Shown here: positions 22,444 to 41,013 of the stretch, one piece after another
Position numbering within the stretch: the stretch's first letter is position 1
Layout: each line of letters opens with the position of its first letter
NCBI GenBank assembly: GCA_016779225.1
Contig: JADHNZ010000013.1
Coordinates: 1 to 64,000 of the forward strand
Direction of reading: 5' to 3'
Length of the DNA: 64,000 nucleotides
From: Planctomycetota bacterium
Lineage (GTDB): Bacteria > Planctomycetota > UBA1135 > GCA-002686595
The notes under the pieces: model-generated
Told to the model about the DNA's origin: nothing
The model's input: only the letters and a program-made list of their open reading frames with translations
Database searches by the model: none
Made by a program: the position numbers and the translations under genes

Positions 22444-22519
<76 letters not shown>

Positions 22520-38563: not shown

Positions 38564-39595
38564 ATGCCCGTCCTCGACCCGAGCGCCCTCCTCGACGACC
38601 GCGTCGAGGCCCTGCGCGCCTACCACCGCGTCACCGGCATCGAGCGCGCGGAGCTCGATGTGTCCGGGGGCATCGACAGCGCCGTGATGGCGGGGCTGTT
38701 GACGCTGGCCCTCGGCACCGAGCGCGTCACCTTCGTCTACTCCGCGATCCACAGCGGTGGTGCGACGCGGGCGCGGGCGCAGGCCCTCCTGGATGCCCTT
38801 GGCGGGACCCTGCTCATCCACGACCTGACGGGCGTCTACGACGCCATGGTCGCGGACATGCTGGCGAACCTGGAGGCCGCCGGCGTCGACATGGAGGCCG
38901 TCCGGGCGCGCATCGCCGAGGACGGCCGCGTGCTCGGCTCGATCCGCAGCTGCATGCGCGCGCCCCTTGGCCGTGGCTACCTCCGCCTCATGGGTCCGGG
39001 CATCCGTCACGGCACGGGGAACGAGTGCGAGGACCGCTGGCTGCGCTTCTACCAGAAGGGTGGCGACGGCGAGGTCGACACGAACCCGATCGCGATGCTC
39101 TCCAAGGGGGAGGTGTTCCAGCTGGCCCTTGCCCTGGGCGAGCGCCTCAGCGCGCGCGAGGCCTACCGCAGCATCGTGACGGCCGCGCCCACCCCGGAGC
39201 TGTGGGGAGCCGACCACCCGCACACCGACGAGGACGAGATCGCGGGCTACCTGGGCCTCGAGGGCCACGGCGAGACCTGCTACGGCTATGTGGACCCGGA
39301 CACGGGGGCCTACGCCCGCGTGGGCCTGATCGAGCGGGTGGCGCGCTTCGCGGACACCCCCGAGGGCGCGGGCCTCTTCGGAGCGGAGGCGGATGAGGAG
39401 GCCCTCGCCTCCCGCGCGTCGGATGCCCCAGCCTTCGCCGGGCTGGCCCCCCAGCTCGTCCTGGACCTCCTGCGCGCCGCGCGCCGGGCGGAGCGCAGCT
39501 CACGCCACAAGGCCAACCCCAACTGCCCTACCCTCGGCGAGCGTGCTCCCCTGCTGGCGGCCGGGGTGCTCACCGACGCCCTCCCGACGGGCTGA
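38564..39595 (+). CDS. nadE: NAD synthetase
   Basis: A 343-aa ammonia-dependent NAD+ synthetase making NAD from deamido-NAD. The PP-loop LDVSGGIDSAVMAG near residue 35, GTGNECEDRW and the VDTNPIAMLSKGEVFQLA block, and the C-terminal TAAPTPELWG are typical of NadE. There is no N-terminal glutaminase domain, so free ammonia is the nitrogen source. It is about 60 aa longer than the E. coli enzyme, mostly from an insertion around DADGRVLGSIRSCMRAPLG-like sequence and a Gly/Ala-rich C-terminal part. Start ATG 38564 lies 19 bp after the pfkA stop. Confidence 0.88.
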   Translation: MPVLDPSALLDDRVEALRAYHRVTGIERAELDVSGGIDSAVMAGLLTLALGTERVTFVYSAIHSGGATRARAQALLDALGGTLLIHDLTGVYDAMVADMLANLEAAGVDMEAVRARIAEDGRVLGSIRSCMRAPLGRGYLRLMGPGIRHGTGNECEDRWLRFYQKGGDGEVDTNPIAMLSKGEVFQLALALGERLSAREAYRSIVTAAPTPELWGADHPHTDEDEIAGYLGLEGHGETCYGYVDPDTGAYARVGLIERVARFADTPEGAGLFGAEADEEALASRASDAPAFAGLAPQLVLDLLRAARRAERSSRHKANPNCPTLGERAPLLAAGVLTDALPTG

Positions 39596-39654
39596 GCGGA
39601 CCCGCGCGCCGGCTGAGGCGAGACGCCCGGCGGGAGAGGCCTTAGGCTCAGGCC

Positions 39655-41013
39655 ATGAGCTCCTCGCCTCGCGCTCGCCTCCCCAGGCTGCTCGTCCTCG
39701 CGGCAGGCCTGCTGCCTGCCGGCCTCCAGGCCTTCGCTGACCCCTGTGGCCCGGCGCCTGGCCCGGCCCTCGGCCAGGAGCCTTCCCCAGCGCCGGCTTT
39801 GGCGGCAGACCTGCCCGCGACTCCTGGCCCCCTCGAGGAGCGCGAGTGGTCGCGCCTCGTGGACTGGCTCACGCCGCCGGTGGAGGAGCTGGAGTGGTTG
39901 GAGATCGGCTGGGCCCCGACCCTGGAGGAGGGCGTGCGCCGCGCGGCCCTTGAGGGCCGGCCTCTCCTCCTGTGGGCGATGAACGGGCACCCTCTCGGCT
40001 GCACATGAAACAACGGAGTCATCGCCAGGCGGTCGCTCTGGACGGATCCCGAGGTGCGGCGCGAGCTCGAGTTCTTCGTGCCCGCGGCCGATGAGGTGGC
40101 GCGCCTCCAGCGCGTGAAGACGCCGGAGGCGGAGTGGTTCCGTGAGGTGGCGGAGGAGGGGCACAACGGCGGCCGCGGCCCGGGCGTGACGCGCCAGGGG
40201 ATTTATGCGGCGACGGCCGGCGGGCGGTTCCTCGCCTCGATCAACACCCGCAGCCCCGAGCGCATGGTCGCGATGCTGCGGGAGGCGCGCGAGCGCTGGG
40301 ACGAGCTCACCGAGGAGGAGCGCGCGGCGACGCGCGAGGCGGGAGGGGCGCGCCCGGAGGATCGCTATCCGGAGGGAGGCCTGGCCTTGCTGGCGCACCT
40401 GCGCGACCTCCCCCGGGAGGACCTCCCCGACGACTGGCGCGCCGACGCGCGGAACCTGGACCGCGCGTGGTTCCAGCGGGAGGAGCTCGCCGGCCTCCTG
40501 CCGCCCGATCCGGGGCGCCGGCGCTCCGAGGGGCCGGTCGAGGCGAGCCTCGCCCAGCGCCTGGCGCGCCTGCACCTCGTGGACAATGTGCGCGGGCAGG
40601 CTCCGCTGTTTCGGCCCGAGTGCGTGGTCGAGGCGGAGCTGAGCGTCCGGGTCGTGCGCGTGAAGCGCGGGCGGGCGGAGCTCGAGTATGTGGGCCGCGC
40701 GCGCCTCGAGGAGCGAGGCCGCTGGGCCGTGGAGCACCCGGGCCGCCGGAAGGTCGAGGCTGATCGCCAGCGCGGCTACGCGGCCGCCCTGCGCGGGGAG
40801 GCCGTGTGGAACCTCGAGGATCAGCGCTTCGAGCGCTTCGACCTGGTGGCGGCGGGCCCGCGCTGGGGGGCGACCCAGTTCAACGGTCGCTACGACGACG
40901 AGGGGCCGGCCGGCATGGGCGTGCTCTTCACGCTTGCCCCCTCCGAGGATCGCGTCGCTCCGGCCTACCACTGGGCCTATCCGGCGCCCCGGCCGGTCCC
41001 TCAGGAGCGCTGA
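39655..41013 (+). CDS. Predicted selenoprotein: secreted thioredoxin-like, CxU motif
   Basis: The frame begins at ATG 39655, meets TGA at 40006-40008 and continues open in the same frame for 334 more codons. Read through as selenocysteine, it gives a 452-aa protein with Sec118 in GHPLGCTUNNG, i.e. a Cys116-Thr-Sec118 redox motif. A signal peptide (LPRLLVLAAGLLPAGLQAFA) exports it. Around the motif the pattern fits a thioredoxin fold: strand PLLLWAMNG, active site, helix with DPEVRRELE, strand FFVPAADE, then QGIYAATAGGRFLASIN and a helix. Stopping at TGA would cut the fold at its active site, and the downstream part has no good start near the TGA. The C-terminal 230 aa form an extra domain of unknown type. 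TAGGCT 6 bp before the ATG may be a -10 box. Alternatives are a nonsense mutation or split pseudogene. Confidence 0.8.
40016..40038 (+). promoter_or_regulatory. SECIS-like hairpin just after the TGA
   Basis: Starting 7 nt after the TGA, 23 nt fold as a stem: GAGT pairs with GCTC (one G-U), one C-C mismatch, then ATCGC pairs with GCGGT (one G-U), closing a 3-nt loop CAG. The apical loop lies about 18-20 nt from the TGA, within the range of bacterial SECIS elements, which must sit in the coding region right behind the codon. It does not show every consensus detail (a G early in the loop is missing), so this is a candidate. Confidence 0.5.

Follow-up and report, generated by a model that had tools for sequence, protein, structure and literature searches.

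The gene at positions 39655-41013 of the window (the whole 64,000-nucleotide stretch of Planctomycetota DNA analysed here) very likely specifies a selenoprotein, secreted or periplasmic, from a family absent from the catalogues consulted, in which the UGA at codon 118 is read as selenocysteine (Sec). The case is computational, without protein data. What the computation supports is Sec coding, the fold, the position of the residue, its conservation and the signal-like N-termini; a thiol-type oxidoreductase mechanism is the reading to which we lean, by a modest margin, its catalytic cycle, substrate and partner, and the role of Cys116, being inferred. The parts of the gene are these:

39655-41013, + strand: proposed selenoprotein gene, 452 residues, Sec at 118, terminal stop TGA at 41011-41013 (translation and homologues).
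39655-39741, + strand: probable signal peptide, MSSSPRARLPRLLVLAAGLLPAGLQAFAD (sequence, and the signal or lipobox N-termini of relatives; no dedicated predictor).
39826-40320, + strand: thioredoxin-like domain, residues 58-222 (AlphaFold pLDDT 94.3; Foldseek matches).
40000-40002, + strand: Cys116, likely resolving thiol of a CxU motif (conserved as Cys in 120 of the 127 distinct Sec members).
40006-40008, + strand: in-frame TGA, selenocysteine 118, where helix 1 begins (homologue column, pattern scan, AlphaFold).
40015-40017, + strand: Gly121, invariant, sitting where CxxC has its second Cys (invariant column; comparison with a UxxC protein, L246).
40023-40044, + strand: bSECIS-like hairpin whose GGUC loop spans 40031-40034, starting 22 nt past the UGA (-8.4 kcal/mol; rules of PMC13188914).
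40372-40974, + strand: alpha/beta domain at the C terminus, of no known family, which has a long beta sheet and a conserved HLVDNVRGQ (AlphaFold, full length, pLDDT 89.4).

On translation, the frame from ATG 39655 has a single internal stop, the TGA of codon 118, in the context GHPLGCT-TGA-NNG. Third-position GC is high on both sides of it (0.85 upstream, 0.93 downstream); the coding pattern therefore carries on past the TGA. A sequence-only reading had given this frame, these coordinates and this motif, all of which held exactly, and had remarked on the high-GC codons after the TGA, which held as well. It had also called the product secreted, and this too held: most family members begin with a signal peptide or a lipobox, and these N-termini, in the absence of a dedicated predictor, support a secreted or periplasmic location for the window protein. 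A minus-strand open frame of 553 codons (39310-40971) lies antisense to the gene; most probably it arises from GC-rich codons, and conservation lies in the + frame. The sole RNA family match across the window is a tRNA gene at 22447-22519 on the minus strand (Rfam).

Conservation carries most of the argument. Of 101 related genomes, 50 returned a match, and nearly every match holds one in-frame TGA and no more; in the 50 homologues extracted and aligned, the residue-118 column holds TGA in 47, Ser in three and Cys in none. When a public genome collection was scanned for the exact pattern with codon 118 left unspecified, at least 117 stretches were returned, and 117 of 117 carried TGA. TAG, TAA and Trp were never observed at the site in homologues. 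The reading frame is kept at 40-50% identity on either side of the TGA. Record titles of the scan matches name Planctomycetota, Fimbriimonadales and other Armatimonadota, Poribacteria, Latescibacteria, Marinimicrobia, Chloroflexi, Hydrogenedentota and Rubricoccaceae; most label metagenome-assembled genomes, and individual labels may be wrong. The same TGA stands in the complete chromosomes CP036290.1 and CP036434.1, and the named carrier strains with complete chromosomes include Pla163, Poly30 and Armatimonadetes Uphvl-Ar1. A TGA conserved in frame at a functional site across independent genomes is one criterion for a selenoprotein, and it is met. Clustering of neighbouring genes revealed no conserved gene neighbourhood or partner gene.

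More distant relatives retain Sec with altered flanks, for example RCUVFAGAAR and VCUAAGSAGR. One set (L230, L232, L237 and L239), with the motif xCUVFAGAAREAVFS and similar, is possibly a second uncatalogued selenoprotein family; other divergent Sec relatives (L225, L229, L233, L235 and L236) show FCUHNG, STUA, NCUAGS, VCUAAG and VCUTAA.

A second criterion, that the host encode the machinery for Sec insertion, is also met: the source genome has selB on contig 49, and selA, tRNA-Sec (72.8 bits) and selD on contig 76, so that all four genes sought are present in a draft assembly of 99 contigs and 77% completeness. The three genes of contig 76 lie within ~8 kb. The selD gene there (L240; G000 contig 76, 4503-5450) holds one in-frame TGA of its own; SelD is therefore probably a selenoprotein too. 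SelA is found in 97 of 101 close relatives and has no discriminating power among them; association was therefore sought in phylum-wide samples. Among 392 genomes of the phylum, 88 carried a TGA-bearing member (members counted at E below 1e-20), and SelA was present in 84 of these as against ~155 of the 304 others (p 2e-16 by Fisher's test); for the other phylum sampled, that of an Armatimonadetes carrier, the figures were 15 of 18 and 58 of 133 (p 0.002). These SelA counts were transcribed by hand from output tables and the genomes are related, which makes the p-values nominal. The TGA-bearing genomes without a full SelA (4 of 88 and 3 of 18) are likely to be incomplete assemblies. In five genomes the only full-length member has Ser or Pro at the site; three of the five (G193, G265 and G376) have no SelA match.

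Third, the message just 3' of the UGA can fold. Published bSECIS rules (PMC13188914) call for a G in the first two loop positions, a location 16-37 nt after the UGA and a minimum free energy of -7.5 or below; the hairpin of the window gene meets them. Taken singly, it does not stand out from its own shuffles (z -1.1). Across the family the signal is stronger: with shuffles that are synonymous and preserve protein and codon usage, a hairpin score of at least 14 is reached by 84% of 94 distinct members versus 29% of shuffles. Codons in the hairpin loop are biased as well: CGG or AGG supplies Arg at +8 in 58 of 62 cases, as against 26% at other places in these genes, and TCN supplies Ser at +9 in 78 of 78, as against 64%. 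From this bias and the enrichment over shuffles, we infer that the hairpin is under synonymous constraint. RNAalifold found no structure in an ungapped codon-register alignment, since the hairpin occurs in two registers and one codon is deleted in a few members; per-gene scoring against synonymous shuffles took its place. Local folding-energy z-scores after the TGA (-0.6 to -0.7) are only modestly below those elsewhere.

The fold places the residue where a redox centre would be expected. AlphaFold gave a pLDDT of 89.4 at full length (77-member alignment) and 94.3 for the N-terminal domain (53-member alignment), which was folded alone because the full-length Foldseek search was uninformative. 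Residue 118 ends the loop that leads from strand 104-109 into helix 119-127, where thioredoxins have their active site. The Foldseek matches of the domain are to thioredoxin-like domains such as those of DsbH type, DsbD-gamma, ERp18 and AGR2 (probability 0.98-1.00), though the E-values are no lower than 0.007 and the TM-scores lie around 0.5. The predicted model thus satisfies the criterion of a thioredoxin-like fold, a beta-alpha-beta core in which helix 1 begins at the active residue; such a fold had been proposed by the sequence-only reading. A PDB sequence search gave only sub-significant AGR2-type matches, and the C-terminal domain had no significant Foldseek match.

The active-site motif is CTU(N/G)NG: among 127 distinct Sec members, 69 have CTUNNG and 46 CTUGNG. 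At +1 to +3, Cys occurs in none of the 127. His112, Pro113, Arg125, Gly182 and Asp310 are among the invariant residues. When L246, which belongs to the VPGUxxT family and has UxxC, is compared in register by eye, its Sec coincides with Sec118 and its second Cys with Gly121. By this comparison, Sec118 replaces the first Cys of CxxC, and invariant Gly121 replaces the resolving Cys; the earlier description of the site as CxU, not UxxC, was right but incomplete, as it is CxU and UxxG both. Cys116, the only widely conserved thiol remaining, is inferred to be the likely resolving partner of Sec118. Its role is uncertain, for it is missing from seven of the 127, and in distant relatives the Cys stands at -1 rather than -2.

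The favoured working of the enzyme, that of an oxidoreductase, follows by inference. UGA 118 is very likely decoded as selenocysteine by SelB and tRNA-Sec with the hairpin just 3'; the selenolate would attack an oxidised substrate, which could be a peroxide or, on an exported protein, a disulfide or sulfenic acid; Cys116 would resolve the intermediate as a Cys-x-Sec selenenylsulfide; a periplasmic thiol donor would regenerate the enzyme; and the C-terminal domain would probably confer specificity for substrate or partner.

The protein had looked undocumented on sequence alone, and this held against Pfam, NCBIfam release 20, the 119-family prokaryotic selenoprotein catalogue of 2026 (PMC13188914) and the open-access full text searched: the window protein has no family in the first two, no such protein is in the catalogue, and the motif is absent from that full text. 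The supplementary planctomycete selenoprotein candidates of PMC4807772 lay outside the search and could hold a member. The nearest known systems share part of the design. VPGUxxT proteins (NF041382/NF041383) have a thioredoxin-like domain, Sec at the first CxxC position and the same phylum, and, of all NCBIfam matches to members, theirs is the best (E 0.0045, across the Sec-holding region); they differ in their VPGUxxC/T motif, in having Cys versions (L244, VPGCSGC) and in profiles of 287-349 positions, of which only the thioredoxin region is matched, with scores far below the curated cut-offs. The window protein does not meet the terms of membership (curated cut-off and VPGU motif). Thioredoxin_7, DsbH, DsbD-gamma and ERp18-AGR2 domains share the fold and the active residue at helix 1, but use CxxC or CxxS, whereas the window family has UxxG, Cys at -2 and an extra C-terminal domain; eight of 77 members match Thioredoxin_7 weakly, and membership of PF00085 or Thioredoxin_7 (PF13899) is not met, by Pfam cut-off or by motif (CxxC/UxxC). 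Thioredoxin-like selenoprotein Sec.1 (PF13192) likewise has CxU in a thioredoxin-like fold (PMC13188914, Table 1), but neither the window protein nor any other member scanned matches PF13192. Glutathione peroxidase-like selenoproteins (UxxT) share a thioredoxin fold and Sec without the resolving Cys of CxxC; Foldseek matches to their structures are weak (E above 0.1), and there is no match to their sequence family, PF00255.

What sets the family apart is that no Cys version of it was seen. Its TGA-free full-length members have Ser (L039-L041, L221, L222 and L223), Asp (L220 and L226) or Pro (L224) at the site, and none has Cys. FastTree places them among the Sec members on five or so separate branches, the number being approximate, since support values were left out of account; read as losses of Sec, these went to Ser, Asp and Pro though Cys is one base change from TGA. 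Protein queries carried Cys in place of Sec, a bias that favours finding Cys versions; the 392-genome search scored only the top candidates of each genome, and a divergent Cys paralogue may escape it. The statement is limited to the family, C-terminal domain included; Cys abounds in the wider thioredoxin superfamily. Each check that the sequence-only reading had proposed, the search for selA, selB, selC and selD among them, bore it out. It had looked for support to homologues aligning across the TGA with Cys or Sec at the site; these were found with conserved flanks, but with Sec only, and the lack of a Cys version family-wide makes the case more unusual. Cys-containing homologues are the usual discovery criterion for selenoproteins, not a defining feature, and the authors of the 2025 deep-Sep study state that every known selenoprotein now has Cys homologues, adding that any lacking them could be overlooked by their method (PMC12013277); the family is an apparent exception to that statement. 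Some TGA-free members adjoin a Sec paralogue on the same contig, as tandem pairs of a Sec member with a Ser or Asp member (L221 and L226); the Ser or Asp copy may be a partner or a pseudo-enzyme paralogue.

Four other accounts can be considered. The one that survives best, and remains possible, supposes that Sec is not a two-electron thiol-type catalyst, and instead binds a metal or metalloid or scavenges an electrophile once, with Cys116 as co-ligand. In its favour are a CxxC position without a resolving Cys, a Cys adjoining Sec at -1 or -2, a lack of Cys homologues that is unusual among thiol-type oxidoreductases, and a conserved HLVDNVRGQ domain whose role is unknown; against it are the thioredoxin-like fold, in which Sec occupies precisely the redox position, and the absence of any His/Cys cluster besides invariant His112. 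A second account, an unlikely one, makes the family a divergent branch of VPGUxxT selenoproteins. The NCBIfam match over the Sec region and the by-eye register of Sec on Sec speak for it; against it, scores are 15-17 bits where the cut-offs are 275-350, VPGU is absent, the site is UxxG rather than UxxC or UxxT, the C-terminal domain is the family's own, and the window protein itself has no match. A third, that the TGA is a true or leaky stop yielding residues 1-117 or a standard amino acid, is very unlikely: it can appeal to the lack of protein data for Sec and to TGA being the gene's terminal stop as well, so that the internal TGA, unless recoded, would end translation, but must face the SelA association in two phyla, the constrained hairpin, the codon's place at the catalytic position of the fold, and the site's freedom from TAG, TAA and Trp. 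Finally, sequencing error, which had been named beforehand as a refutation, or pseudogene decay finds support only in the draft state of the assembly and is all but excluded, because homologues share the TGA, in more than 100 independent genomes including complete chromosomes, with the frame conserved on both sides.

The selenoprotein reading admits a bolder form: a widespread, secreted and obligately selenium-dependent family, in which Sec is ancestral, is not replaceable by Cys and serves a selenium-specific reaction. We would as readily doubt this as accept it; if true, the family performs chemistry that cysteine cannot support. Bacterial selenoproteins have mostly been found by the pairing of Sec and Cys in homologues, and a large Cys-free family would escape such methods; gene calls in the carrier phyla would be truncated at the TGA. 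The selenoproteomes of Planctomycetota and Armatimonadota are thus suggested to be under-counted. The family offers a test case for why some proteins retain Sec, and as its carriers include named strains with complete chromosomes, that question is directly testable.
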